Origin: Ischnura elegans
Lineage: Eukaryota; Arthropoda; Insecta; Odonata; Coenagrionidae
Direction: 5' to 3'
DNA: 64,000 nt
Assembly: GCF_921293095.1 (NCBI RefSeq)
Contig: NC_060253.1
Location: 77,537,992 to 77,601,991, forward strand
The notes under the pieces are model-generated. The model was not told the DNA's origin. It made no database searches and worked only from the letters and a program-made list of their open reading frames with translations. The position numbers were made by a program, and so were the translations under genes. Every line of letters begins with the position of its first letter. Position 1 is the first letter of the stretch. Below are positions 9,493 through 64,000 of this stretch, piece by piece.

Positions 9493-10561
9493 CTTCATGA
9501 AAAGCACAATTCGGCACAATCAAAAGTCTTGGCCAAAATTGACAAAATTATCTGAATACTCAGCATTGATTTCTAGATACTAAGTACTCTATCAAAGCCA
9601 GAAAAAAATCCGTACTTTGGGTCCATTGACTTCTATTAATTGACTTCAAAGCCAAGATTTACAATAAAACGTAAACTACTTCACACGCAAAAATTAGTAA
9701 AAGAAAGCACTCAATTTTTAGGGCCTATCACACAACATTCTTCATATTTCGTAAGTGTATAACCGTTTTGAAGCCTTTATCGTTATTTCACCTTAGGGTT
9801 TACTCTTCCCTCCACATAAAACTCTAACGACAGCACCAAGAATGAATTTCAAGAGATAGCACTCTACATGTTCCCAAGCTCAATACCGTATTATTAATAT
9901 TTTCATTTCATCTAAATGAAAATTTTCACTGACATTATTATACATAAATAGTACCTTGGGCATTGTTACAGTCAAGTGACTTATGTCTTTCCAAAGTCGG
10001 ACACAATCGCTAACATGCTAACCGGTTCTTAAGGGAAGCGACTACCAGAAAAAGTACGATAACATCATTTCCAAAAATTTGCATCTTTGGGCTAAAATGG
10101 AGACCGAGTGTGTACCAGGAACGGCGAAGTTATCAAAAAACGAAGTTTTCCTAGATGATACTGCGCTGAGGAAAAGGCAATTTTATTCCTATTAGGCACC
10201 GTAACGGAGTAATGATAGTCAATTAAGATTGCTAGAGGAACCATGGAAGATATTACACTAAATATTTTAAGAACAAATGATAGGATCGGTAGACATTCAT
10301 CAATGAACGAGTAAGGCTAATGGTTTTCGCTCTCATGCCCAAGATAATCAAAACGCTCATTTTAAAGCACGAAATATTCAGCTGGAGCATCGAACTATTT
10401 TTCTTTCCTTGTAGAATAAATATCAAACGTTAAATTGTCTCATCACTCGCTATAAATACAGCAAAAGAACTGACCGCGAACAAACCTACTATATGAAGAA
10501 ATTTGGTGATCACCGAAAATTCATAGTAGCGAGCGACACTTTGTGGAAATCCTTAATCCAC
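9493..10561. other. Nothing recognised
   Basis: AT-rich non-coding sequence. No ORF of note, no repeat partner and no RNA gene seen. Confidence 0.5.
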
Positions 10562-10701
10562 GTGGTGATTTATTGAGATCGACCATGCTTTCATTACAGC
10601 GTAGCATTATCAAGGTGACTTGATCTTGATAATCAACTTGATATCATCTTGATAATGTTACGCTGTAACTAAACCATGGTCGGTCACAATAAATCACAAC
10701 G
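10562..10701. mobile_element. Foldback or MITE-like inverted repeat
   Basis: The left arm, GTGATTTATTGAGATCGACC then ATTACAGCGTAGCATTATCA, is mirrored at the right by TGATAATGTTACGCTGTAAC then GGTCGGTCACAATAAATCAC. The arms are about 60 bp with a few mismatches, around a short centre made of variations on CTTGAT. It is non-coding and would fold into one long hairpin. No clear target duplication was found, so the family is unassigned. Confidence 0.65.
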
Positions 10702-13563: not shown

Positions 13564-14457
13564 TGTGGACCAAACGGTGCAGAAGCAAGAATAAGAAAAT
13601 GGGTGAGACAAGGTTGTGCGCTTTCCCCCTTAATTTTTAATGTTTACATAAAGAAAGCCATCAATGAAATCAAGGAAAAAGCTTCGGGTGTCAATATCCA
13701 CGGAGAAAAAATTAACATGCTGCGATTTGCTGACGACATAGCAGTCACAGCCGAGACAGAGAAGGATTTGAAGAAGACGTTGACAAAGATGGAAAGGACA
13801 ATGGCCAGATATCAGCTGAGTATCAACAAAAAGAAGACTAAGATATTAGTTTGCAGCAAAAGAGAGGAGGCTAAAACAAATATCAACCTAGGAAAGCATA
13901 AGCTTGAAGAGGTGAACGAGTTCTCTTACCTGGGAAGCCGAATTACCAGCGATGGACGGAGCAAGAAAGAAATACACAGTAGAATAGCGCAGGCTAAGAG
14001 GGCTTTCTACAAAAAGAAGAATCTTCTTACAGCTGAAAATACCAGCATAGAAGTAAGGAAACAGTTCATCAGATGCCACATATGGAGTATGTTTCTCTAT
14101 GGAAGCGAGGCTTGGGCGTTGACAGCAGCAGAGAAGTCAAGAGTGGAAGCATTCGAAATGTGGTGCTACCGAAGAATGATGAAGATAAAATGGATTCACC
14201 GTGTGAGAAACGAGGAAGTGCTAAGAAGAGTGGGAGAAAAGAGAAACCTCCTAAAAACCTTATGCAGAAGAAGGGACAACTTAGTTGGACACATTTTAAG
14301 GCACGATGGTCTGATGAAGACAATCGTTGAAGGACTAGTGGAAGGGAAAAAGGGCAAGGGACGGCCCCGAATGAGTTATACAGGACAGGTTATAAAGGAT
14401 GTAAAAGAGAAGAAATATGTAGCTATGAAAATATTAGCGGATAGGAGAGAGAAATGA
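13564..14457 (+). pseudogene. 5'-truncated non-LTR retrotransposon reverse transcriptase (RTE-like)
   Basis: This encodes the C-terminal part of a LINE polyprotein. The frame is open from 13564, right after an in-frame TAA, to 14457. The first visible RT motif is VRQGCALSP, followed by FADDIAVTAETEKD, which holds the catalytic Asp pair. The thumb contains FSYLGSRITSDGR and YGSEAWAL, and the basic tail runs GLVEGKKGKGRPRM. The endonuclease and the N-terminal half of RT are missing, so the copy is dead on arrival but little decayed. The stop after RREK looks like a small frameshift, because the next bases in another frame continue the family tail (RATSNQS-like). No ATG fits a real start, and the first in-frame candidate at 13603 is GTG. 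The element lies inside the satellite, which continues on both sides. Confidence 0.85.
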
Positions 14458-14513: not shown

Positions 14514-15487
14514 TTTTAAATGAAGAGAAAAATTTCAAACTCTACCAAAATTGAAATTTTTAAAATACTTTAAGCGAGCTCTCTCACTTTCTCATCTTCA
14601 ACTCGCCTTTTCGGCTTGCCACCCTCTACTTTTAAGCCTCATCGTCATCATTTTTGGAAGAAACGCTATATGGCTTAAAAAACTACTCCAAACCACGCGA
14701 GCCCGAGGCCATTCACCGTCCGAAAATAGCCCATGACGTCATCAACTTATATGGAATCCATTGGGAGTCGATTTTTCATGGGAAATATCCGGAGGTGGAT
14801 CGAAAATACGGCAAATGCTCGTCTATGAATAAAATGATACGGAAAATGTTTCAAACTCTACCACAATTGACAATTTTTAAAAAACCTTTGATCGAAGTCA
14901 TGCACTTTCCAATCCTCAACTCGCCTTTTCCGTAACAACCCTTTACCTTTTAGTGTCATCGTGAATAATTTGGGAAGGAATCTCTAAATGGATTGAAAAA
15001 CAGCAACAAAGCACGAAGAACCGAGGCGGATCACCGCTCAGAAATTAGCTCATGACGTCATCGACTTATGTGAAATCGATCTGGAGTCGATTTCACGTCA
15101 TTTATTTCTGGATGCGCACCGAAAAATGGAAAAATACGGGTTTTTAAATAAAAAATACGGAAAATATTTCGACAATTTTTAAAAAAGCAGTAGTGAGCTC
15201 ATTCACTTTCCCATCTTCAACTCACCTTTTCTGTTGCCACCCTTTACTTTTAGGTCTCATCATCAATATTTTATTAAGAAATTGCTTAATAGGTTGAAAA
15301 ATAACAATAAACCATGCGATACCGAGGCGGTTAACTTCTAGAAATTAGCCCGTGACGTCATCATTGTATGTTGAATCAATTTGGAGTCGATTTTTCGTCG
15401 TAAATAACTGGAGGCGAACCGAGAAACAGAAACATACGGGTATTTAAATAAAAATACGTTAAAAATTTCATACTCTGTCATAATTGA

Positions 15488-18293: not shown

Positions 18294-19340
18294 CTGAGGA
18301 CCAAAAATAATGATTAGTCAGATGTTCGATGATAAGAAAAGAACGATGATTGGACATACTTCAAATACATACATACAATCGCTGTAATTTAAACACATAC
18401 ATATGACTTACCATGATTACAAAATCGTCCGAAGTTTAAAAGCAACAGATAAAATTCATTCAACTCACAGTTCGCGTGTTAACACTCAATGGACTAAATA
18501 AACATATCTACAGAAGATGAGTACTAATAAGTTATGTATTTTCAATACTCTCTAATAGTAAAGAGGACCTCCTAAACGCGAAAAAACCCGATTCACATTC
18601 TCCGGCCCCAGCCCCGGCCCCCGTTCCACCCCGCGATTAGACCAACTCCAAACACCCCAACGAACCATTTGAACAAAATAATCCATTAACGCTTACAAAT
18701 TCTGTCACTCACGATATATTTTTTGGGAATGATTTTCATATTTTTACACAACAAAATTTCTATCATAACGGAATTTTTACTGTATTAATTAAAAATCCAG
18801 AATGATGATGAAACTTGAGCAATTATTTGCTGGCATAAAATGAAGGATCATAGATAACCACAGACAAGAAACGCACTACGGAATGGGACTGGAAGATATA
18901 TTGCAATGAATTGCAGGGATCCAGGACTTGAAAGGTTACCACGCCTCCTATAGGATTTACGAAAGCTGTATGTCATCCATTCTCCCGGGAAAATTCATAA
19001 AAAGTAATTTTCTCACCCGATTTGGGTCAAAAATCAGACGCATCCTATTGCCGCAAAATACTTAACGAGGATCAACGGGTGTTGAGAAGAAAGAAACTGG
19101 TCATTTATCTTTTGGACATAAAAAGCTGGAGAAATGTAAGTAATAATAACTCACTCAATGTTATTCGATCCAAGGGTTGGTTTGGATGGGTGAGGGTAGA
19201 GGTACTCCAAACATAGTCACACGTAAATCACTTTTAGGATAGGGCTATATCTTTTCCCTAAGCCACCTAGAACTTTGAGGATTGCAAATAAAGTATGCAT
19301 TCTGAAAAAGGCCACTCCAGAGATTTGAATCATTCGATAG
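18294..19340. other. Possible upstream intron, otherwise nothing recognised
   Basis: If 18054-18293 is an exon, the minus-strand intron begins here. A small G+C patch (CGGCCCCAGCCCCGGCCCCC near 18601) stands out. No DDE transposase core was seen. Confidence 0.4.
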
Positions 19341-19590
19341 CCCAACGCTCTACCTACTTGGATACCATAATCCCCATGAACGATCGGCAATTCACAAATA
19401 TAATATTGGTAAATAGAAACTTAGCGGCAAAAGAACTATTCAAATTCAAACACTCAGAATAATGTACATTAGTCTGAGTGTTAGAATTTGAATAGTTCTT
19501 TTCCCGCTAAGTTTCTATTTACGAATATTATATTTGTGAATTGCCGATCGTTCATGGGGATTATGGTATCCAAGTATCTAAGCGTTAGGT
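19341..19590. mobile_element. 250-bp near-perfect foldback with tRNA-like ends
   Basis: Left arm 19341-19457 and right arm 19474-19590 are reverse complements with only a few mismatches, for example GAACGATCGGCAATTCACAA against TTGTGAATTGCCGATCGTTC. The 16-bp centre contains the palindrome AATGTACATT. On the minus strand the left end reads AAGTAGGTAGAGCGTTGGG, which resembles a tRNA A-box region. GATTCAAATCTC just outside it (about 19320-19332) resembles a weak B box. The right end carries the mutated mirror copy. It may therefore be two opposed halves of a tRNA-derived SINE, or a foldback MITE. Non-coding. Confidence 0.8.
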
Positions 19591-20744
19591 ATATTTACTA
19601 ATTTTAGACAAAAGGAATAGCCTAAGCAATATACCTATATGTCTAATACAGACACGAGTTCCAGGCGAAAAAACGACGATTCATTTACACGCAAACCCAA
19701 ATAATTAACGTAAATTATTCCGAAATTTTAAAAATTCTTAATCAGTCTCAAAAAAACGAGTCAATGGAAATTCAACTTCGCTGAGAGGCAAAGGGTCTAT
19801 CTATTAAAATGTTGAGCTCGAGAGGTAAATCCCGAATCAATTGGCAATATGTTCCATCTAATGAAATATCTTATATGACAGAGGAATTTCACACGTTAAA
19901 TATCGCAGCTCCACAAAGTGTCTTTTTAAAGTGCAGCAATGGGACCTCACGGATATCTTTAGTATTATGTGACACTGAATGCATAAATCTTGGAGAATTA
20001 TAAGAATTTATAAGAAGAGAATTATATTATATGTCAGACAATAAGGCGACCACATAGAAGTCCCACGGCGCTATCATCAAATACAGTTAAGTAAAGGTGA
20101 AAAAAATTAGATTTTCGTTCACATTCTATTGTCATTTTTAATAGCTCATTAATCATGAGGATAGATAATTTAATAAAATACCATTTCATTGAAATCAACT
20201 AATCCGTTTCAATCCGAAATATTCTTCCCACGACAATTGTAGTGAAACTAGGCAGGTCGTTTTTCATAATAAGATCAGTCTTTTAAGAGAAGAATAAAAA
20301 TGATAAAAATTATTCACCACTTATTCAAGGCCTTGATCACAGCAAGAACTTTTAAAGGCAAAGTTAAAAAGGAAAGCTCCAGTCTTCCAGGCCGTTCTTT
20401 CAGAAAACTTAAGAAACCAATCGCCCACAAAGTTTTTAGCGGTCTTCTTTTCTATTTCCATATCAGCTATCTTCTATAGATAAACATATATCATTCACCC
20501 ATTCAACATATAACAATATGGACTAATAAGATGCGATAGAAATCTTTACTGCGATTGCCTCTCTTATTCCAGATGTCTTCGCAACCTTAAGTGTGACGCA
20601 TGCATACATTTTTTAACGTTTTGGCATTAACATTTTTAACGTTTACTCGAAGTTTAACGTGTCTCGAAGTTGGATCTGATATCCGCTATTATGTACGTTC
20701 AGACCCTGCCGGCCCTCCATAGGAGCAGCATAAAGATGTTTAAA
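19591..20744. other. Nothing recognised
   Basis: AT-rich sequence. A 64-codon plus-strand ORF at 19809 has no domain. No RNA gene seen. Confidence 0.5.
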
Positions 20745-20790
20745 TAATAAATAAAATCGAACAAACTATGTATAATCCACCAATTTATTT
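20745..20790 (+). repeat. 46-bp inverted repeat, left of the LINE
   Basis: It contains CGAACAAACTATGTATAATC and CCACCAATTTATTT. It is the reverse complement of 24178-24223 at 45 of 46 positions. It abuts the T run (20788-20796) that marks the polyadenylated 3' end of the minus-strand LINE. Confidence 0.9.
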
Positions 20791-21113
20791 TTTTTTAATA
20801 ATAATATATAATTTATTCCATTTACAATCAAATATTACATTTTAGAACATACTTAAATATTTTGGAATATATAGGTACCCCTTTTAGTAGTTTTGGGGCT
20901 ACCATCATAAACTTTTTACATAGGTCTGGTGCTAGCACACATGAGAAGTAAAATTTCTTTGTATTCAGTTATTTGTTCTATTGCCGATTGCATTCATTAT
21001 TACGAAACGTATTTCAAATATTTGGACAAGGATAACTATTTTTCTTATTTTTCTTATATAAACGCATAATTACATACATAGAATATACAATATACCTTTT
21101 ATTGTAAACTTTT
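20788..21113 (-). other. LINE 3' UTR and poly(A) end
   Basis: Downstream of the LINE stop codon. On the minus strand an AATAAA (20812-20817) is followed about 20 nt later by an A run (T run at 20788-20796). That is the expected polyadenylated 3' end of a jockey/CR1-like retrotransposon. No other ORF. Confidence 0.7.
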
Positions 21114-24017
21114 TTAACCCACCTTTCTTAGTAGAAACTCTACTTCCTCACACATCATAAGCCATTTTTTAACGGCGGATTTAAATCCCCATCTTTTTTC
21201 CGAGTTTGCTACATTACTCGGCAACATGCTAAACAATTTAGGCCCTAAGTAATTGTATGACTGTCGATAAATTTCGGTCGTCGGCCTAGGTATATGGAAG
21301 TTTCTCCAAGCTCTAATGTCATAGTTTTGTGGTCGGGCCTTTTCACCACTACGGTTATAGAATATTCTAAGGACTTTATAAATGAATAAATGCCTTAGTG
21401 GGAGGACATCTAATTTTTTGAATAGAGGAAATGAGTGGCTTTTCCTATACGATCGTGTTATAACCCTGATAACCCTTTTTTGCGCCACTATCAATGGTTT
21501 AATGTTGATAAAATATGCTCCACCCCAGCAGGCCATTCCGTATTGCAATCTTGAATTAACGAGAGCATAATATACCATTTTTAACACTGATTCAGGGCAT
21601 ATGTATCTGAGGAAGTAGAATTTTCTTACAATAGTAATCATTTCTGATTTTAATTTATTTATGTGAGACTTCCATTTACAATTTTGGTCAAAATATATAC
21701 CTAAATATTTTATGTGACTAGCCTGTTCGATCAAAATACATTTATCACAGGAAGTAACATTATCTTTTATACAATTTGCACATTGATAGTATAGTTTACT
21801 TTTGTTTGAGGTAGATTTACTCATGCTAAACATAATATATTTCGTTTTTTCACTTAACAACATATAATTAGCCGAAAACCACATATTGAGTGTTAATAGA
21901 TCACTTTGTATGTGTTCATATAGATCATCAACACTATTAACAGAGTAACTTAGTGCAGTGTCATCTGCGAATGACGTTAATTGACCTTTAAACCTGCCAG
22001 CAAATAAATTGTTTACATATATTAAAAACAGTATGGGTCCCAACACAGAACCCTGTGGGACACCACAGGTGAGTCGAATCTTTTCACTGTAGCAATTTTT
22101 GAGACGCACACATTGATCTCGATCACAAAGATAACTTTGAAACCAATCATATGCGGTTCCACGTATACCCGCTTCCCATAATCGATTCATTAGTATGTTA
22201 TGATTAATGGAGTCGAAGGCTTTGGTAATGTCTACAAATAAGCCAGCAACTCTACAGTTCTTATTCAGTCCGTCGTTCAGCTCTGAACAGAATTTTAATA
22301 ATGCATCCTCTGTACTCTTACCACTCATAAATCCAAATTGGTTTTTATTGAAAAAACTATGCTGATTTAGAAATTTAAGAAGTCTGACTTTAACAACTTT
22401 TTCTATTATTTTAGCAAATACAGATAATAGGGATATTGGTCTGTAATTATTTACGTTCATTTTATCACCTTTTTTAAAAATTGGTATCACTATTGCAGTT
22501 TTTAATTGTTTAGGAAATATTCCAGTATACATACTTAGATTAGCAATATGGGCAAGGACCTCCGAAATATTTGCATTTACTTCTTTTATAACTTGTGTGG
22601 AAATATTATCAACACCTTTAGATTTTTTAGACTTTAATTCCTTAATAATGCTGCTAATTTCTTTCGCATCAGTAGGAACAAAAAACAGTGAGTCAATTGA
22701 ATTGGAGGTTGGGAATATTTCTTTGTATTTATTCGTATTACTTTCAAAATAATTGTTCTGGGTCAATTCTTGAATTACTTTACCATAATGTGAACTAAAT
22801 TCGTTTACAATGTCCTGGCACTTAGTGACAACGATACCATTACTAGTTCTAATTTTTACACAATTCTCATTTCCTTGCTTTCCTCCCGTGAGTGAATCTA
22901 AAATGCGCCATTGAGCAGCGGTATTATTGACATTACTATCAAATAGGTCCCTGTAATACTTTTCTTTGCGCTTTTTAATATCATATTCTAATCTTTGCGT
23001 GTACGATACGTAGTACCTATTTAGCTTTTCATTTTCAGGGTGTTTCCTCATTTTTTTATACAGAAAATTTCGCCTAGAAATTCTCCCGCACAAAGCGTAA
23101 GTCATCCATGGCCTCTTCATTCCTCCCGATCTGTTACTGTCTGACACGTATTCAGCTTTTTCAATGCAGCATTTCAGTTTATTTATAAATATTTCATAGG
23201 CTTCATTGACATTTTGTTGTGAATAAACATCATTCCAGTCACATCTTAGCAAACTATTATTTAGATGGTTAAAGTTTATCCGGCAATGGCTTCGATAAAC
23301 TCGTTCGTATATATTAATGGGTACATTAATATTTAAAGAACATGATACAGCATGATGGTCTGTTAAACCCCAATCGTCCGCTCTTCCCTCATACTTATAG
23401 TTATCTCTACTTCTGCAAAAAATGTGATCTATACATGTACTACCCGTTTTGCTAATTCTAGTTGGTACTCGAATAAGCTGGTCCAGTCCATGACTAGCCA
23501 TAAGGGTTTGATATTCAAAGGAAATATCGTTGGGTTGTAATAAACATAAATTAATATCACCAATTACAATTAAATTCCTCTCACTAGAGATGGTTAATAC
23601 ATTCTCCAATTCACTCAAAAAATGTTCAACAGGATTAAAATTAAGTCTATATACACCAATAATGCTTATCCAAGAAGAATCATTTATCCCTACTGATATT
23701 TTAACCATATCAGCAGTTTTTAATTCACCCAGATCAATAGAAGAACACTCATAAGTATCTGCTACATATGCAATAACTCCTCCAGCCCTATAGTTATTGT
23801 TACACACATCAAAACTCCGATAGCCAGTTATTTGATACATAGATACTTCAGTGTCATTGACCCAAATTTCTGTTAAAACAATTACAGCGGGTTTTATATC
23901 GAGATTAATTAGTTGAAATACAAATTTATCAAAATTAGCTCTTAGACTTCTTATATTTTGATGCAAGACAAGGAACCTGCCACCATTAAATCCATTATCA
24001 TTAACAGTACTCTGCAT
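21114..24017 (-). CDS. Intact non-LTR retrotransposon polyprotein (endonuclease + reverse transcriptase)
   Basis: The protein nicks target DNA and copies its own RNA there. The frame is open back to 24056, bounded by TGA and beginning with GTG. The first ATG is at 24017, giving 967 residues. Numbering below is for the 980-codon frame. The APE-type endonuclease spans about 28-240: LHQN (N34), LTEIW (E63), GVYR (Y136), GDIN (D167), IDH (210) and LTDHHA (D233, H234). RT spans about 460-740: NNYRPISLLS, FVDITKAFDSI (D609), CGVPQGSVLGP and FADDT (catalytic Asp pair 698-699). A C-x2-C-x7-C-x2-C cluster at 759-773 precedes SHIKYLGI. The C-terminal tail includes LQYGMACWGG. It has no frameshift or stop, unlike every other retroelement here, so it is young. 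No ORF1 (gag-like) lies upstream; only about 120 bp separates the frame from the inverted repeat. It belongs to the jockey/CR1 supergroup, but the exact clade (for example Daphne or Kiri-like) cannot be fixed by eye. Confidence 0.95.
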   Translation of the reverse strand: MQSTVNDNGFNGGRFLVLHQNIRSLRANFDKFVFQLINLDIKPAVIVLTEIWVNDTEVSMYQITGYRSFDVCNNNYRAGGVIAYVADTYECSSIDLGELKTADMVKISVGINDSSWISIIGVYRLNFNPVEHFLSELENVLTISSERNLIVIGDINLCLLQPNDISFEYQTLMASHGLDQLIRVPTRISKTGSTCIDHIFCRSRDNYKYEGRADDWGLTDHHAVSCSLNINVPINIYERVYRSHCRINFNHLNNSLLRCDWNDVYSQQNVNEAYEIFINKLKCCIEKAEYVSDSNRSGGMKRPWMTYALCGRISRRNFLYKKMRKHPENEKLNRYYVSYTQRLEYDIKKRKEKYYRDLFDSNVNNTAAQWRILDSLTGGKQGNENCVKIRTSNGIVVTKCQDIVNEFSSHYGKVIQELTQNNYFESNTNKYKEIFPTSNSIDSLFFVPTDAKEISSIIKELKSKKSKGVDNISTQVIKEVNANISEVLAHIANLSMYTGIFPKQLKTAIVIPIFKKGDKMNVNNYRPISLLSVFAKIIEKVVKVRLLKFLNQHSFFNKNQFGFMSGKSTEDALLKFCSELNDGLNKNCRVAGLFVDITKAFDSINHNILMNRLWEAGIRGTAYDWFQSYLCDRDQCVRLKNCYSEKIRLTCGVPQGSVLGPILFLIYVNNLFAGRFKGQLTSFADDTALSYSVNSVDDLYEHIQSDLLTLNMWFSANYMLLSEKTKYIMFSMSKSTSNKSKLYYQCANCIKDNVTSCDKCILIEQASHIKYLGIYFDQNCKWKSHINKLKSEMITIVRKFYFLRYICPESVLKMVYYALVNSRLQYGMACWGGAYFINIKPLIVAQKRVIRVITRSYRKSHSFPLFKKLDVLPLRHLFIYKVLRIFYNRSGEKARPQNYDIRAWRNFHIPRPTTEIYRQSYNYLGPKLFSMLPSNVANSEKRWGFKSAVKKWLMMCEEVEFLLRKVG

Positions 24018-24056
24018 TTTGTTAGTAAAGATAGGTTGAAGACATACATAACTCAC

Positions 24057-24177
24057 TCACAGAATGCTTACAGTTTCTCCAGGTCATCAGAGGATTTCAG
24101 AGTGATTACTTGATCATTCCTGGCACTCCGAGGTACCTGATGGTGACGCCGCTGCGTCGAAACTAGTAGTACCACAT
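24057..24177 (-). other. LINE 5' leader
   Basis: About 120 bp between the endonuclease-RT frame and the right inverted repeat. It is too short for an ORF1. It includes, in antisense, the hammerhead-like motif at 24132-24173. Either this LINE has a very short 5' leader, or the 5' part was lost on insertion. Confidence 0.5.
24132..24173 (+). ncRNA. Hammerhead-ribozyme-like motif (imperfect)
   Basis: On the plus strand: outer strand GGTAC, then CTGATGG, a helix GACGC-CGCT-GCGTC, then GAAAC, a short loop TAGTA, and GTACC closing on the first strand. The order CTGATG, stem, GAAA and a GTA cleavage-type triplet follows the hammerhead core. However, the core has G where A is expected after CTGATG, plus one extra base before the helix, so self-cleavage is doubtful. 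Hammerheads are known in Penelope-like elements and other retroelements of arthropods. It is antisense to the LINE and next to the inverted repeat. Confidence 0.35.
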
Positions 24178-24223
24178 AAATAAATTGGTGGATTATACAT
24201 AGTTTGTTCGCTTTTATTTATTA
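24178..24223 (-). repeat. 46-bp inverted repeat, right of the LINE
   Basis: The sequence reads AAATAAATTGGTGGATTATA, then CATAGTTTGTTCGC. It is the inverse of 20745-20790 with one mismatch. Together the two repeats enclose the LINE. They are inverted, so they are not the direct target duplication expected from target-primed reverse transcription. Confidence 0.9.
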
Positions 24224-25390
24224 GAATGAACCACCACAAAGTTGAGCCTGTTACGATAGAGATTATGTTTAAATAAGTTTTTTATTTAAAAATCCAGGAA
24301 ACAAAAAGAAATATACAGTGAATTCTTTTGAAAATTTTTATCGGTATCGTAATCCGCAAAATATCAAAAGGGTGGTAAGCCTCCTCGATTATTTATGCTC
24401 ATTTAAAATCGTAACCTGGTTTAGATCATGATACATCGAAATAATCCGTTAGCACCCGTTTCTCCACGCACTCAGCTTTCATTTCTTATCAGATCTAGTT
24501 CAAGGCCACCTCTCTTTAGCTAACGATGTTATAATTGTACCCACGTTCCTTAATGATGATTCACTGAGCTTATCGCTACAATTACTTGGCCTAGGGCGCT
24601 AATTAAAGTACTCTTTAAGTGTTTTTGAGTAGAACTTGAGCAATATTCTTTGCACGCTCGTCTATTCTCTGGTGCACGCTTTGCATGGTGTTAGTTGCAC
24701 TCTTTTTTCTATACTACTTGGCATGCTGTTGCGATCCTTAACACTAGAGGAAGCGAAGTGTTGAAAACTTCCAACTATTCCACCCTCCGCAATAACTCCC
24801 TATACTTCGGTCTAAGCAGCCAAGCACATTCCTCAGAAAAAAACACAAACAGAGCAAAAAACGTGTTCAACTTAATTAGCCTAGCACGTATTTGCTCGCG
24901 TTCTAGGCGTACTACTAAGCATTCAACAACTCATGGAAATTTAAACTTTTTTATGCATCTATCACTAAAACGATCACGAGCAAAATTGGTACTAGCAAAA
25001 TATTCGGGATAGGCAATAAAATGTTATTTTTGTCATTAATAAATTTCCAAAGGTAGATGTCCTGCATTTCTCTGCGTCAAAGACGCAACTCCTTAGCTAT
25101 CCGAAATAGTGGCACTTCTTTCGACTTCCGAGTCATCACAAAACATTTTCCCTGATGCCCTAGACGAGATTCCCTCAATTTATCCTGATTTTCCAAACAT
25201 TTCAAATTCCCTAACATTTTTCCTGTTTCCCTAACCTTTGAAAACACTGTGCTTGAGGACCTTCGTACGGTATGAATTAAAAATATAAATAATCATGAAA
25301 TTGCTACGATTGATAATGAACGACAAGAGCATACTATTTCTCAAAACAGCTAATTGTAATTATGAGACAGAATTTATTAATAATAAGATG
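24224..25390. other. Nothing recognised
   Basis: A 105-codon plus-strand ORF at 24695-25012 has no domain and a composition typical of random AT-rich frames. The sequence at 25383-25390 is the left target duplication of the following MITE. Confidence 0.45.
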
Positions 25391-49589: not shown

Positions 49590-49872
49590 TGTGGCGCATT
49601 ATCCGCCACAACACAGAATTGGACCGGTGGATAGGTGTTCCATTACCAATCGGACGGCCCGCGTTCGATTCCCAGCGCGCCGGCCGGAATTTTTTCTCTT
49701 TTCAGAGAAAATCCAGAATTTTCGAGGAAGTTCCGACGCGGCTTTCGAGAGAGTTCGCCGCCACTATATAAGCAGCCATCTCGCCCAACAATTGGTCTGT
49801 AGTTTGAAGTGGCAATAAACGTTCCGCTGCAGAAACCTCACAAGTGTATTATTCAGCGTAGCAATCGCTACA
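49590..49872 (+). mobile_element. 5' LTR of a Ty3/gypsy-type retrotransposon
   Basis: It starts TGTGGCGCATTATCCGCCACA, a 7-bp hairpin at the extreme end, and finishes GTAGCAATCGCTACA. The TG...CA boundaries lie one base before a primer binding site. A TATATAA (49765-49771) and AATAAA (49814-49819) sit in promoter and polyadenylation order. The segment at 49622-49685 is tRNA-like (GTTCGATTCCC resembles a B box). No matching 3' LTR was found in the window. Confidence 0.8.
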
Positions 49873-49873
49873 T

Positions 49874-49887
49874 TGGTGACCCCGACG
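49874..49887 (+). promoter_or_regulatory. Primer binding site, tRNA-Trp type
   Basis: TGGTGACCCCGACG begins one base after the LTR. It matches the start of primer binding sites that use tRNA-Trp in other retroelements. It starts with TGG, complementary to the tRNA CCA end. Assignment of the primer tRNA is from recall of that site only. Confidence 0.65.
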
Positions 49888-49898
49888 ACAAACGACGC

Positions 49899-50886
49899 AT
49901 GGCAGACGCAGAGCAACTCGCGAAACTGCAGGCACAAATCGCGGAACTCAAGCAGCAACTCGCCGCACAGCAAACAAACCACAGCCGACAGCTGGCACTT
50001 ATCCGAGAACAGCACCAACAGCAGCAAGCAACGCTCTCATCGCAGCAGGTCCCACCGCCTCAATTATCCTGCTGCCATCCACCGTGTCACTCCGAAACGG
50101 CCTCCTTTCTGGCCAGCTCACCTGAAATATGGTTCGCCCAGGTCGAAGCACAATTTTCTTTGGCCAACATCACCTCGGACAAGACTAAATATAATTACGT
50201 CGTAGGAAACATAGCCCATCGTTTTGCCAGTGAAATAAGCGATCTTATAGTGAATCCACCGGGCGAAAATCTTTATCAAGTACTGAAAAATCTATTCTAA
50301 AAAATCTAAATCTAAAAATCTATATAAATCTGTAAAAATCCCTCTCTCTCCGAGGATCAACGAGTGCGGCAACTCTTCACAGCAGAAGAGCTTGGTGATA
50401 CCAAGCCGACGAATGCAGTCCCTCATCGGCACCACAAATGTGGAGGGCTCTTTCCTCCGCACATTATGGTTGCAACGCCTTCCGGTCAACGCTCAAGCCA
50501 TCCTGCAAGCGCAAGTTACTTCATTTCCCCTTGACGAACTTGCAGATATGGCTGACCGCATCATCGCCGTCGTTCCGCCTCCAACTTCACCCGTCATACA
50601 TGCAGTAAGCCATACCACTGACGATTCGGCATTGGCCCAACGGATTGAGGAAGCCTCGAAGCAGCTGCAAGATGTAGAAGCTCGTCTAAGAAAACATCTC
50701 CACCCACGAACTTGGACTCGCAGCAGCCCTCTACCGCCTCCCGCTCGCTCCACAGATATTTCGCAGCGCCCTGCTCAATCTGTGATGTGTTACTACCATC
50801 GCAAATTTGGGGTCGAAGCAAGACGTTGCATCCAGCCATGCACCGCAAATGCAGTGAATCCGGTAAACTCCAACAGCGACTCGTAA
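49899..50886 (+). pseudogene. Degenerate gag of the Ty3/gypsy element
   Basis: The capsid polyprotein. ATG at 49899 follows the primer binding site and opens MADAEQLAKLQAQIAELKQQ, an N-terminal coiled coil. The capsid-like block that follows contains PEIWFAQVEAQFSLANITSD. The frame stops at 50300 inside an AT-rich run of ATCTA-type repeats (about 50286-50345), where the coding sequence is interrupted. It resumes at about 50392, with a frame change, as EGSFLRTLWLQRLP and ends with CYYHRKFGVEARRCIQPC in place of a classic zinc knuckle. The frame closes at 50886. The breaks make it non-functional. Confidence 0.8.
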
Positions 50887-52311
50887 CGGCGGCTACGAGT
50901 CTTTCTATCATAGGCTGCCGCCTCTTCGTCACTGACCGCCTCTCCCAACGACGTTTCCTCGTAGACACAGGATCGAATCTATCAATCTATCCAGTAAAAT
51001 TATGCCCCGAACAATGGATCTGCACTGACTACAAGCTCTCCGCAGCCAACGACAGCCGGATCCGTACATACGGTACTTTACTTCTACGCCTTCAGTTCGG
51101 CCTCCCTCGTGACTTCTTTTGGAGATTCATCGTTGCTGACGTTACCGAGCCAATCATCGGAGCAGATTTCCTAACCCACTTCCAACTCGTTCCTAACATG
51201 GCCACCAATCAGCTCATTGACAGAATTTCTGGACATTCTACATCGGGTAATAGGGGTCGATCTTCCCAAGACAGCGTTCGCGCTCTGTCGGGCTCTTCAT
51301 CCTACCACGACCTCCTCATCGAGTTTCCTGGTATCACCCAGCCACCAGGCACTCCTCGGGAGATCCACCATCAAACTAAGCAACATATACGCCTACAACC
51401 TGGATCGCCGATCTGCCACCGTGCCCGCCGTCTAGCCCCGGATCGACTTCGAGATGCACAGGCAGAAATTGAGCTACTAGTATGCGAAGGCACTGTTCGT
51501 CGCTCGCACAGCTCTTACGCCTCACCAATTCATATGGTTCGCAAGGAGGATAGTATCTGGCGACCTTGTGGTGACTTAAGGGCCCTCAACGCACGTACAA
51601 TACCGCACCCTACCCCGTCCGCCATCTGAAGGATTTCTCCCACGCTCTTCAGGGATGCACCATCTTCTGTGTTATCGACTGTGCCACGGCTTCACTCAAA
51701 TTCAAATGGCTCCCTAAGACATGGAAAAGACAGCCATAATTACACCTTTCGGCCTTCTTGAATTCCTATTTATGCCATTCGGACTTCGTAAAGCCGCCCA
51801 AACAAGGGAGCGCTTTATCGACGAAGCTCTCGAAGGCCTAAATTTTTGCTTTCCTTACATGGACCACCTACGGATCTTATTCCAGCGCCTTTCTGACAAC
51901 GGCTTCACCGTCAACTCAGCTAAGTGTGTCCAAGGATCTTCCAAGGTCACATTTCTGGGCTTTCACGTGAGCGCTGATGGATGCACGCCGTTACCTGACA
52001 AGGTAGCTGCTAAAACGATTTCCCTCCACCGAAGACCATTAAGGACATTCGGAGATTCCTCGGTATGCTGAATTTCTATCACCAGCACATACCACACGCC
52101 GCATCCACACAATCCCCTCTCAATGCACTGCTTCAAGGTCCTGATATCAAGAGCTCCACTCCAATTTGTTGGACACCAAAACTTCAGCAGAGTTTCGATG
52201 CCTCTAAAGCTGGACTCGCCCAGGCTGCAGCCCTGTCGCATCCAACCAACTCAGCACCTCTGGCTCTCATCGACATTATCCGCCACAGTTACAATGGTCC
52301 AAAGCTAAGAT
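50887..52311 (+). pseudogene. Degenerate pol of the Ty3/gypsy element, 3'-truncated
   Basis: The protease piece shows FLVDTGSNLSIYP (the DTG active site, with Ser where Ala is usual) and PIIGADFL (about 50945-51180). The RT begins near 51380-51610 with RRLAPDRLRDAQAEIE and WRPCGDLRALNA, then loses frame near 51615. It resumes as EKTAIITPFGLLEFLFMPFG, and the catalytic region reads YMDH where an Asp pair is expected. A deletion follows. The connection region LNFYHQHIPHAAS lies at 52065-52200. RNase H and integrase are absent. Similarity ends at about 52311, beyond which the sequence is AT-rich. Dead copy. Confidence 0.8.
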
Positions 52312-57400: not shown

Positions 57401-57649
57401 ATTTTCGCATGAACATATCCATGCCCGGAACTAGGGAGGGGTAGATGAGGCACATGCCCCGGGCGGCAGATCTCATGAGGTGGAAAACATTAAAATTTAT
57501 TTAATAAAGCTAATTATTTTTTCTAATATAATTATTCAACAAAAACCGATTTCTTTTTCTTCTCTTTGACCTTAATTTTTTTTCTGTAGATAAACGTATC
57601 GCATCATATTTCTTAGAATGATATACAAAATTATTTTCCAAAGTTTTTT

Positions 57650-57870
57650 TCTTCTTCTTCAAGGATACGAGTGGACATGATTACATGAAATTGATACATG
57701 AATGCATAAAACATTACTACAGTGTTTTTTTACAATAATAAAATAAAACAAATAATTCAACTGTGCATAATTTAAAGGAAGAGAAAATATTTTGACATAC
57801 ATTTTTGGCAAATATTTGTCTACTGATTGCAACGTAGCCAGTTAGTAAATAATTATTTAATAAACCCAAA
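57650..57870 (+). repeat. Dispersed repeat shared with 27590-27800
   Basis: Same orientation and order of matching blocks as the 27590 copy, ending with ATTTTGACATACATTTTTGG. Diverged and non-coding. Confidence 0.55.
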
Positions 57871-58090
57871 TTAACTTATTAACAATAAATTTATTATGAT
57901 TACCATTATATTGTACTAGTTAAGTTACAATCAGTACATAAATATTTACAATAAAGGTATGTCAAATTTATGTCCCTTCGTTTTCATCTATGTAAAATTG
58001 AATTATTTTTTTTATTTTACTATTGTAAAAAATGTAAAAACCTTTTATGGCCCTATGTATCAATGTAATGTAACCATATTCATTCATAGC

Positions 58091-58126
58091 CCTGAAGAAG
58101 TTATAAAAAATAAATCGAAACGTTGG
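58091..58126 (+). other. CCTGAAGA...GAAACGTTGG motif
   Basis: CCTGAAGAAG, about 14 nt of AT, then TCGAAACGTTGG. This pattern of CTGAAGA plus GAAAC recurs in arthropod retroelement ends and resembles decayed hammerhead cores. No stem II can be drawn here, so it is only a sequence resemblance. Confidence 0.25.
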
Positions 58127-61052: not shown

Positions 61053-61543
61053 GTAACGGTTCTTCATACTGATGCGACGCCCACGTCAAACAGAGCTTTT
61101 TGAGAATGTTATGCTCTAAGTAGTGACGTAGCAATTGTTCATGCAGCTGTTTGTCTGTCCGCCATTCGTTTCCATAAGGCTGCACGGATTGCGACCAAAG
61201 TTAGAACAAAAGTGTATCTCATGCTCCCATACACCGTAGAGCTACCTTCGGTCGCGTTCGACGCGCCTTTTTCGTTTTCTCATAACCATTTGTTACGTAA
61301 CGGTTCTTTATACTGATGCGACGCCCACGTCAAACAGAGCTTTTTGAGAATGTTATGCTCTAAGTAGTGGCGTAGCAATTGTTTATGCAGCTGTTTATCT
61401 GTCCGCCATTCGTTCCCATAAGGCTGCACGAATTGCGACCAAAGTTAGAACAAAAGCGTATCTCATGCTCCCATACACCGTAGAGCTACTTTCGGTCGCG
61501 TTCGACGCGCCTTTTTCATCGTTTTCTCATAACCATTTGTTAC
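61053..61543 (+). repeat. 244-bp tandem duplication
   Basis: Copy 1 spans 61053-61296 and copy 2 spans 61297-61543. Both start GTAACGGTTCTT and run through GATGCGACGCCCACGTCAAA, CGTAGCAATTGTT, CATGCTCCCATACACCGTAG and TTCGACGCGCCTTTTTC to CATAACCATTTGTTACGT. Only a handful of substitutions and a 3-bp insertion (ATC) separate them. More GC-rich than the surroundings. No clear ORF. Confidence 0.9.
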
Positions 61544-64000
61544 GTCACGTCATTTAACTTCTGTGGTTGTAAATCCTGACGGGGAAAAACACACCCAAAT
61601 ACGGTCAATGAGAAAACATAAAAATTTTACATGATCATAAAATCCCAGTTCCAAGTTGCCCACTTTTTTTTGTACTATCCTTCCCGAGCAAAGCCCGGTG
61701 GCCTGCAAGTATCAAATAAACCTCCCTTCCCAAAAGTATAATATGATTCCACTAAAAATATGAAATTTTCAGGCGCAAATATGGTAATAAGCAGCAAAAG
61801 GAGAGTGTAAAAGTATTTCAAACAGCAAAAACAAGATTCGACGACAAAAAATTATTTTCAATCGGCAATGATAATAAACAACCAAGGTTTTTTTTTAGAA
61901 AATAAATCTTCAATCTAAATTGATAAATTGCATATATAAAAAGACGAAATTTCTAGATGGGCAATAAATAGCATCAATAAAAGATTACAATTATTACGTG
62001 CAAAGAAACAAAATTTGACTAAGAAAAAAAATTATCCCGAATAATATTTAATTAACTGAAATAAAAAATTATTATTAGTTTCCTAGAAATTTCTATTATT
62101 CGAAAATTAAAATAATTATTATGACAAGTCCACCACTATTTAAGTCCAGTGTATAAAATGAGTTTCGACATCACCTTTCAATGTAAGAAATATGCATTTT
62201 TCAATTTTCATGATTTATCCGTCCATCGATAAGTGCCACCTGAGGACCCTGCTACGCTACGCCATTGGTCCTAAACCGTTTCACACGAGACTAAACAGGT
62301 ACCGAAAAGCGAGGAGGCTCAAATATGGTTAAAATTGTACGGTGTCAAGGATGTCATCTCTCCCTTGAGTTATTACGGGCAGAGAGATCTTCGGTATGGT
62401 GCCGGGTTACGAGATGGGGTAGGTGTGGAGATTAGTTTTTCCATCCCGTGGGTCCGGATTCAATTACTGGCGGAGGCGCATATTTTTCGGAGGAATACCG
62501 ATCCCCGTGTGGGACATGGGAAATGACGACGTTCGTACTCACTCGTTTACGGGATCAGATAAACCCCTTCCGACCATATAGGGAAGGGCCTCTACCAATG
62601 AGTTTTAAAATGGAGTCATGGGAAATTCGAAAAATAACAAATTAAATTTTAGGGGCATAAATTGCTATGACGGAGGCAAATATCCTTTCCTTCAAATCCT
62701 ACTTCAATGAGAGTTATGAAGTCAATTATGCATATGTAGTAGGTACATATATGCATGAATTTCTTATTTAGTGTAGCCCTAAACACACGTTTCAATGGGG
62801 TATCGTCGTTGTACATAAATAATTCAATAAGGTTCCGTACTTAACACATGACAGACGTAAAAATTACATATGAAATATCCATCCGACTTCTGGATCCAAT
62901 GACAAATCAAATTATGCTTCGTTAGAATACAAGCAGAGGTCCTTGAATACCCTGTACCAACTACGCCTGAATTGCATAACCAAATTAATTTCTAGTCCCC
63001 CCATGATACAAGAAAATACCCCAACCAATAATTCCCAAGTATTTCGCAATGCCATGGCACCACTTAAACATACTTAAACAGCATAGTGCAATTTTTTTCT
63101 TGCTATATGGTCGGTGACGCCTTCAGAGACCCACGTTGGAGTCTCATATTGCGCCGTAGACTTACCTCCAGTAACGGGCATCTCATACGGAACAGCTTAA
63201 ATTCTCCGCAACATAGTAGCCCACAAATGAACTGGCCTGAATATGCTTTTTAATTTAGATGAAGCAAAGTTTATCATTCAGGAAGAATGATACACCAAGC
63301 GAATGATACGAGAGGTCGTTAACTCTTTAGCGCCCAATGTTGCTCATAAGCAACACATATTTCAAAGACCTGAAATTCAGAGGGAATGCATTTTATTTAG
63401 GCAGCTTTAATTTTTCTTGAAACCTTTATGTTCGGAGCTAATATTTACGTCACCAACCAAATGATAAGTGGTTCTAATTAACTAAGCGCAGTTATGATTT
63501 GGCACTTAATTCTAAAAATTGGAGCAATTCTGGACTCGTAATAGTGAAATATAAATATAAAATTAAAGCCTCATCTTAACGGCATGCTAAAATTGCAAAA
63601 TTCTATGCCATGAGAGGAGTCGATCTTTTTTTTTCTTTTACTCATTCGAGAATGGCGGAGAGAAAATTTAATGCCCAATCCTTTTGTTCTACTCCACGTC
63701 TTCTGTGCCCAGATATTGCCCAACGATCCCTCTAAACAAAAAACATGCCTAAACTCAAACCAGTAGATAAAACCGGCAATCTGAAGAACATTCCGTTACC
63801 CTGCAAAAGCAATTGATGCATTCCAATACTTACTGGGTAATCTTTTGCTGGTGAAACGAAGCCAAGAATACAAACAGCAACCAAATCATTTCTTAGCTGA
63901 TGTGCGTGAGATTACAATCAACGCAACAGCCTCAGCTCCATAATAAGAACAACCGCGCAAAATGGCACAGACGAAAGCGATAACGCAGCTAGCAATTGAG
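61544..64000. other. No gene called
   Basis: AT-rich apart from 62220-62640, a GC-balanced patch with two overlapping short ORFs (63 and 65 codons) of unknown nature. No transposon ends recognised. Confidence 0.45.

Follow-up and report, generated by a model that had tools for sequence, protein, structure and literature searches.

A 5'-truncated LINE copy between the inverted arms of a Penelope-like insertion in Ischnura elegans

The window, a stretch of 64,000 nucleotides of Ischnura elegans (NC_060253.1, positions 77,537,992 to 77,601,991 of the forward strand), contains a LINE copy flanked by two inverted sequences (Table 1). Sequence comparison within the window revealed reverse complementarity at 45 of 46 positions between 20745-20790 and 24178-24223, as reported in a preliminary description of the locus. 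A search with a 26-nt arm core at up to 3 mismatches detected only the two arm sites within the window, and none of 100 shuffled controls gave any match. The left repeat abuts the oligo(A) of the LINE and the right one is located 121 bp from the open frame, both in agreement with the earlier account (poly(A) end; about 120 bp upstream). The inverted repeat is real, but the pair that brackets the LINE belongs to a longer Penelope-like element (PLE) unit with a 12-bp duplication, the homology to the PLE family spanning 24132/24133 to 24264 on the right side. The direct flanks expected of a target-primed insertion are present in the form of this duplication, which lies outside the inverted arms; its left copy shares 3 bp with arm B, and a 12-bp match arose by chance in 0.075% of 20,000 draws of two random positions from the window. 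Arm B has no tail, is truncated at the A-rich site ATAAATAAATT and lacks its inner 45 bp. The window copy contains no PLE coding body. The inverted repeats are almost certainly the two arms of a Penelope-type insertion, so that the ends are PLE sequence, and the anatomy of arms, tail and duplication is established.

Table 1. Coordinates of the composite insertion within the window.
Feature	Position	Strand	Remarks
Target-site duplication of the Penelope-like insertion, left copy	20736..20747	.	12 bp ATGTTTAAATAA, exact match to 24265-24276
Arm B	20745..20792	-	terminal 46-48 bp of the PLE pLTR, consensus positions 44-92
Oligo(A) at LINE 3' end	20788..20796	-	9 nt, T on the + strand, merges into arm B
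5'-truncated LINE copy	20796..24119	-	last 16 codons of ORF1, ORF2, 3' UTR, TTA-repeat tail
LINE ORF2 (endonuclease and reverse transcriptase)	21114..24056	-	980 codons from GTG, 967 from ATG at 24017
Filler between LINE and arm A	24120..24132	.	12-13 nt CTGGCACTCCGAG
Arm A	24132..24223	+	full pLTR of the short PLE unit, begins GGTACC; homologous to 42 fetched PLE loci
Type I hammerhead-ribozyme-like motif	24132..24173	+	GGUAC CUGAUGG stem II GAAAC UAGUA GUACC; by pattern and fold
Tail	24224..24264	+	41 bp, first codons of the PLE ORF (ATGAAC...); on one outer arm only
Target-site duplication, right copy	24265..24276	.	12 bp; the two copies enclose the whole unit

The pLTR begins with a motif that is putatively hammerhead-like, judged by its pattern, its fold and the hammerhead consensus. 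In the window copy a G replaces the conserved core A of this motif, which is present in all 73 other core matches at the 42 loci. An Rfam search returned no hammerhead, either at gathering scores or up to E 10, and the Rfam matches listed were all below their gathering scores. The window arms also lack one T that most copies possess (73 matches with and 2 without it, 42 loci).

The arm-bearing PLE is common in the 1.72 Gb genome of I. elegans. Using the core of the 46-mer at up to 3 mismatches, a genome-wide search of the kind proposed in the preliminary description yielded 9 matches; 7 lie outside the window, distributed over 5 loci, and at none of these 5 loci was a match to the LINE present in the 9 kb fetched. 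The 29-bp core search recovers too few family members, as the window arms are without the T that most copies have; the core of the family consensus gave 646 matches genome-wide and a reversed-pattern control gave 0. Among the first 100 of the 646 matches listed we found 33 neighbouring pairs with both arms pointing outward and 31 unpaired entries, and the 4 other neighbour steps represent one tandem array and its surroundings.

To describe the units, 43 were read including the one in the window, and 39 of them are two-armed; four (L050, L055, L058 and L011) show just one arm in the sequence read and do not enter this count. The arms point outward in 39/39 two-armed units. Exactly one outer end carries the tail, again in 39/39, with the limitation that L048-L067 are the best matches to a tail-bearing query, for which the tail was thus selected; L068-L083 were drawn mostly via a pattern of the pLTR only. 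A duplication of at least 10 bp flanks 36 of the 39 (range 10-16 bp, mostly 12-16 bp); when the left flank of one unit was paired with the right flank of another, at least 10 bp were in common in only 1 of 1806 such mismatched pairings. Duplication and tail were scored on the outer arms only, extra inner arms being present in L013, L078, L081 and L083; measured from the outermost arms, the duplications of L013, L081 and L083 amount to 12, 12 and 14 bp, and a cruder scan found none. In one further genome search the best 40 of 1,361 candidates were scored. L081 is a tandem array of 183-bp units and the sole array among the 43 units read, nearly all others being inverted pairs or single arms.

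Longer units contain PLE coding sequence. A relative, L085, encodes a single frame of 885 aa with a reverse transcriptase domain (RVT_1, E 1.1e-12) and a C-terminal GIY-YIG domain that lies slightly below the cut-off (E 2.7e-4; 21.6 bits against 22.6). Downstream of this frame the pLTR consensus is matched at positions 1-99, and a partial match (58-133) overlaps the start of the frame, whose first codons make up the tail. Three features of a PLE are found: a frame with RT and GIY-YIG (L085), a pLTR reaching the ORF start, and inverted arms with one tail and a duplication. For the nature of the ends, the earlier suggestion of a composite with a Penelope-like end was correct. Short palindromic units with direct duplications also resemble foldback MITEs, and a cut-and-paste DNA transposon or MITE, later entered by the LINE, might accordingly have supplied the arms as its terminal inverted repeats. 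This is very improbable: the coding content and the one-sided tail contradict it, since longer units contain PLE coding sequence, the relative encodes RT/GIY-YIG and a single outer tail occurs in 39/39 units; moreover, the arms vary in length and the duplications, detected in 36/39, range from 10 to 16 bp.

Penelope/Poseidon-type PLEs are described in PMC3846280 and PMC11167929 as combining RT and GIY-YIG in one frame with a pLTR that overlaps the ORF start and includes a hammerhead-like motif, an inverted arrangement of the pLTR arms, an optional tail of 30-40 nt at one end and a short target duplication. The Ischnura element resembles Pen2a of Adineta vaga and PAc of Anolis in frame, pLTR, arms, tail and duplication, and by pattern in the putative motif, but differs from both in that many units consist of a pLTR pair alone and that the window unit holds a LINE. 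The duplications, mostly 12-16 bp, are longer than the 8-10 bp quoted there for A. vaga. Metazoan non-LTR retrozymes (PMC7229834) are likewise short and AT-rich, and the Ischnura units share with them, by pattern, a type I hammerhead-like motif. Retrozymes are defined by tandem repeats of about 150-450 bp with a type I hammerhead, to which the 183-bp array of L081 may be compared. In contrast to tandemly repeated retrozymes, most Ischnura units read are head-to-head pairs, and their motif resembles the minimal PLE variant.

The LINE itself is ordinary: it belongs to a young family with two ORFs and is truncated at its 5' end. Its ORF2 contains an RVT_1 domain (E 4e-32) and an Exo_endo_phos domain slightly below the Pfam cut-off (E 3.6e-4), and the domain search found no RNase H in it. 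The preliminary description regarded the LINE as intact; in fact, the first ~1,050 bp are missing, including ORF1 except for its last 16 codons, and this truncation is established. We scored the best 40 of 1,982 first-look candidates, 39 besides the window copy, and read 29 of these 39. The ORF1 of the family shows a weak PHD-finger match and an FP-like C-terminus, some other copies are also 5'-truncated, and other copies terminate in variable TTA/TATATT repeats, in some cases with oligo(A). We presume a CR1/jockey-like two-ORF element, as such LINEs share PHD/FP-like features of ORF1, an EN-RT ORF2, a microsatellite-like 3' tail and 5' truncation in some copies. At the LINE ends in the window there is no own duplication of at least 6 bp, which is normal and does not count as evidence, because 29/29 of the other copies read are also without one of at least 8 bp.

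Of the earlier options, a LINE that carries its own inverted termini and moves by them found no support beyond the arrangement in the window. On the 5' side all 39 other scored copies, from the best 40 of 1,982, stop at window position 24119, and their 3' limits range from 20799 to 20791. Since 0/39 align past 24119 with a query that excluded the 46-mers, they lack the inner right arm, and beyond this limit the sequence is unlike the window in all 29 copies read. No match to the 46-mer was detected in these 29 copies (6.3 kb fetched each), and the family arm gave a single weak match (31 nt, 87%), located in L017 at a distance of about 1.5 kb from the LINE. Together with the 7 matches of the 46-mer at loci without LINE and the unique junction described below, these data leave own inverted termini a negligible probability. 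As far as tested, copies of the LINE are without the 46-mer, and the 46-mer is part of a widespread separate repeat. In Xenopus, Tx1L is a LINE found inside Tx1D, a repeat with inverted ends, and a LINE inserted at an A-rich site of an abundant repeat could be site-specific for the PLE arm in a similar fashion. No arm was detected at the ends of the 29/29 copies read, three of which have a common 3' flank and are not independent, and the junction pattern occurs once in the orientation searched; for that orientation site specificity is contradicted, and we consider it highly unlikely. The LINE of the window differs from Tx1L/Tx1D in that no recurrence was found here and that the ends belong to a retroelement.

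The exact junction between LINE 3' end and arm (0-30 nt between them, one orientation) occurs once genome-wide. At uniform targeting and assumed copy numbers, 0.014-0.12 chance insertions are expected genome-wide at 30 bp or less from an arm junction. The filler on the other side of the LINE has no second copy in the window at up to 2 mismatches; its closest likeness to PLE sequence, 10/13 positions, is with the junction of L046, and by eye it agrees at 9/13 with the arm. The arms and the tail of L046 align with the window unit, and its duplication of 7 bp is unconvincing. The window PLE arm shows 2 changes in 133 nt that are absent from 41 other arms, the one in the tail being unique genome-wide, compared with 5 such changes in 3,310 columns of the LINE (Fisher p 0.027, a test that rests on two changes and on PLE copies chosen for likeness). 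A base change in arm B was left out because it is present once among 81 other matches; with it p would be 0.006. From these private changes (2/133 versus 5/3,310) the PLE part is probably older than the LINE.

Taken as a whole, we moderately favour a chance association, in which the LINE was nested later in a Penelope insertion; an insertion into a pre-existing palindromic element, as already listed among the early options, would then be the most likely history, with capture during insertion also under consideration. The unique junction pattern, the 46-mer loci without LINE and the probably greater age of the PLE part speak for later nesting. We infer the following steps for the strand-by-strand synthesis, the order of events and the loss of the inner arm. 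The PLE ribonucleoprotein would open the target with a 12-bp stagger, and the pLTR/ORF-start region of the PLE RNA would be copied from both target strands, arm A being primed at the tail start site and arm B about 41 nt further in. The two cDNAs would be linked in head-to-head orientation, with duplication of the 12-bp overhang. The A-rich ATAAATAAATT in arm B would later receive an unrelated, probably younger LINE through target-primed reverse transcription, and the inner part of this arm may have been lost at this insertion, or the arm may already have been short beforehand.

The position of the LINE exactly at the arm/arm junction, where so few chance insertions are expected, the missing inner arm B and the unexplained filler argue against later nesting and suit capture during the PLE insertion equally well or better. 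According to this possible but less probable alternative, the short arm-B cDNA came to a halt at the A-rich ATAAATAAATT, a template switch extended it on the 3' end of a LINE transcript, copying proceeded to 24119, and the product was joined to the finished arm A via the 12-13-nt filler, all in one event with one 12-bp duplication. The strand logic agrees, as the + strand reads from the left as arm-B cDNA followed by LINE cDNA from the 3' tail, and arm A stops at the usual GGTACC limit. In L082 the truncation of both arms falls no more than ~6 nt from this A-rich site, and non-PLE filler occurs at the junctions of L066 (30 nt), L061 (37 nt) and L049 (53 nt). At the junction of L074 lie 87 bp that recur without any difference in the flanking DNA, ~185 bp beyond the insertion, but this match to neighbouring DNA gives no hint of an RNA source. 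In A. vaga, Penelope pLTRs are reported to frame a gene of the host and spacers of host DNA (PMC3846280), likewise foreign sequence between pLTRs in one target duplication; that gene is bordered by two pLTRs in direct orientation, and a third pLTR is inverted, whereas the Ischnura LINE lies between two inverted arms. The Ischnura composite is still compatible with later nesting, because its 3' junction is LINE-like. The duplication around the whole unit and the junction position fit both histories. Against capture stand the lack of a second genomic case of the exact junction pattern, the apparently older PLE arm and the generally commoner process of LINE nesting. Among the records listed from the open-licence PMC literature, none matched a LINE within Penelope arms or two-armed units with one tail.

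The puzzle of the inverted bracket dissolves into an ordinary LINE inside a Penelope unit. The lasting value lies in the PLE family with its 646 core matches and 39 two-armed units, each with one tail and mostly with a duplication of 12-16 bp. Published in vitro work with one PLE enzyme described synthesis from both target strands with two start sites bracketing the tail, and the head-to-head signature with one tail and 12-16 bp duplications fits such an initiation. The head-to-head arrangement had earlier been explained by self-priming on antisense RNA; the regular one-tail asymmetry and the unequal 5' truncation of the arms favour two separate priming events. If, as we tentatively allow, the Penelope complex exchanged its template in mid-insertion, leaving the pLTR RNA for the 3' end of a LINE transcript, and thereby placed the 3.3-kb LINE between its arms in one event, one retrotransposon would have been moved in trans by another class, and PLEs could mobilise other retroelements. 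Arm/arm junctions of PLE insertions would then serve as capture points in general, and the 87-bp filler of L074 would be a small example of this.

The two 46-bp inverted repeats that the preliminary description had placed around a LINE in the window were confirmed, both in position and in complementarity (45 of 46 positions). Their 26-nt core matched only the two arm sites within the window (≤3 mismatches), and none of 100 shuffles gave a match. The LINE itself, taken to be intact, is so only in its EN-RT frame; the element is 5'-truncated and about 1,050 bp are missing. The frame shows a Pfam RVT_1 match (E 4e-32) and a sub-threshold match to Exo_endo_phos, and comparison with solved structures returned LINE-1 ORF2 and R2 proteins as top matches.

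Using a 29-bp repeat core, the genome (1.72 Gb, 110 contigs; the window is G000:C8:77537992-77601991) was searched with up to 3 mismatches. Nine matches were obtained, two in the window and seven at five other loci, and a reversed control gave none. The LINE sequence was absent from all five 9-kb stretches around the other matches, so that the core occurs there without the LINE. These loci contain longer or repeated inverted structures, except for L011 with a single arm. At locus L010 the arms (808 bp, 99.75% alike) overlap a stretch of 376 codons free of stops, in which GIY-YIG is matched at E 3.4e-4 (21.3 bits; cut-off 22.6). A search with this protein gave 12,930 first-look candidates, of which 109 matches were scored, and one of these lies in a 915-codon open frame (locus L085). 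From its ATG this frame encodes 885 aa with RVT_1 (E 1.1e-12) and GIY-YIG just below the cut-off (E 2.7e-4); arm sequence is located 3' of it and a partial arm copy overlaps its start. With a reverse transcriptase, GIY-YIG and a pseudo-LTR reaching into the ORF start, L085 is a Penelope-like element (PLE). Traced through the frames of L010 and L085, the inverted ends around the window LINE are Penelope-like, as one of the originally offered options had suggested.

A 31-bp core with the commoner sequence of the family matched the genome 646 times (≤3 mismatches; control 0). The first 100 listed matches comprise 33 neighbouring outward-pointing pairs and 31 unpaired rows; among the matches listed, paired arms are spaced 45 to 1,966 bp apart (mode 125), and one array consists of four arms in the same direction, 183 bp apart. 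We read 43 units (36 units, L046, L010-L014 and the window), 39 of them with two or more arms. All 39, window included, have outward-facing outer arms and a 41-bp tail at exactly one of the two outer ends; the tail sequence overlaps the beginning of the PLE frame. Direct duplications of 10-16 bp bound 36 of the 39, the remaining three having 7, 8 and 9 bp; flanks of different units share 10 bp or more in one of 1806 left/right pairings. The window unit follows the same rules.

Features of the window
Feature	Position	Remarks
Arm B	20745-20792	PLE unit; no tail
Arm A	24132-24223	PLE unit
Tail	24224-24264	outside arm A
Target duplication	20736-20747 and 24265-24276	ATGTTTAAATAA
EN-RT frame	between the 46-bp repeats	minus strand; 980 codons from GTG, 967 from ATG at 24017
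Palindrome	19337-19592	93% self-complementary; foldback repeat
Palindrome	57645-58110	74% self-complementary; foldback repeat
Palindrome	10561-10701	81% self-complementary; foldback repeat
Tandem duplication	14518-15487	unit about 310 bp
Tandem duplication	61053-61549	unit about 244 bp
Another reverse transcriptase, C-terminal part	13603-14457	RVT_1 E 3e-21
Broken LTR-retrotransposon-like frames	49809-51629	DUF7041 and weak aspartyl protease match; region of higher G+C

In longer units (L010 and most of L068-L077) the arms are longer 5'-truncated PLE pieces joined head to head, and some arm/arm junctions contain filler. At L074 (G000:C3:36551130-36551590) 87 bp of the filler recur unchanged in flanking DNA, at a distance of about 185 bp from the insertion end, a pattern that resembles templated end joining; query positions 49-90 of this filler match a high-copy repeat. 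At L081 (G000:C1:98656540-98657500) a single 12-bp duplication encloses four 183-bp pLTR-plus-tail units in tandem together with one inverted arm; this retrozyme-like array apparently stems from one PLE insertion. At G000:C7:43878472-43883543, C12:79172355-79177446 and C10:29907806-29912721, long PLE-like frames (about 56% protein identity) form pairs of opposite orientation separated by a few kb, and perhaps represent long insertions of a related family, joined head to head.

The arm contains GGUAC-CUGAUGA-stem II-GAAAC-UAGUA-GUACC, with the expected stem II in the predicted fold, and reads as a putative minimal type I hammerhead. Since an Rfam search reported no hammerhead for the motif, the assignment rests on this pattern and on the hammerhead consensus. 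The window copy has G in place of the conserved A after CUGAUG, which is A in all 73 other core matches (42 loci). At L012:1-60 a second, different hammerhead-like core is followed by a UUAAAUAAAUUG stretch and perhaps represents another PLE family.

In PMC11167929 the PLE protein of Anolis is reported to cut each of the two target strands and extend it, with reverse transcription beginning at two neighbouring sites; the tail corresponds to the stretch that separates them. From the unit anatomy we infer that arms may arise when both target strands prime synthesis, each strand using one of these start sites; units made in this way would have one tail, arms that face outward and are truncated to different extents, and a duplicated stagger that is mostly 12-16 bp long. 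PMC3846280 describes the same inverted pLTR in A. vaga, with a 31-bp tail and duplications of 8-10 bp (mostly 12-16 bp here), and prefers self-priming on antisense RNA as explanation.

For the LINE, 40 of 1,982 first-look candidates were scored, window included. All 39 other copies align from window position 24119 downward only, with varying 3' ends. The 29 copies read carry LINE sequence of their own upstream of this point; it ends either at a 5' terminus that they have in common, about 1,050 bp away, or at a truncation before it. By this comparison the window copy lacks that part. The family has a length of about 4.4 kb and an ORF1 of 306 aa (Baculo_FP_2nd, E 4e-15; weak PHD match), of which the window copy retains 16 codons. 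The 46-mer matched at none of the 29 loci, which together with the common alignment limit speaks against a LINE carrying inverted termini. No duplication of at least 8 bp was found at the ends of these 29 copies, three of which have the same 3' flank and so do not count independently. These three (L029, L034, L041), two of which also share a 5' flank, represent either duplicated segments or one transduced flank. The window LINE, a truncated copy of ordinary kind, is young, as 5 private differences over 3,310 columns show. A pattern linking the LINE 3' end to the arm, with 0-30 bases of spacing and in one orientation, has its single genomic match in the window; the association of LINE and PLE was found once.

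We consider it rather probable that the LINE was nested later into the PLE insertion, because insertions of LINEs are common, the junction at the 3' end is of the normal type and lies at an A-rich site, and duplication-free ends are the rule among the copies read. The PLE arm also has more private changes per nucleotide (2 in 133 nt versus 5 in 3,310; Fisher p 0.027), in a thin age test with a PLE sample chosen for likeness. Capture during PLE insertion, in which synthesis would have passed from arm-B cDNA to the 3' end of LINE RNA, is a possible though less favoured origin; the strand logic agrees with it. Further points in its favour are the position of the LINE exactly where the two arms meet, the end of arm A at its usual GGTACC limit with just 12-13 nt of filler next to it, the missing inner part of arm B and the foreign sequence at other unit junctions; with uniform targeting and assumed copy numbers, 0.014-0.12 LINEs per genome are expected within 30 bp of a junction. 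Among the options offered originally, insertion into a pre-existing palindromic element is the likeliest course of events. The units collected in this analysis provide, as a collateral use, a data set on PLE integration.
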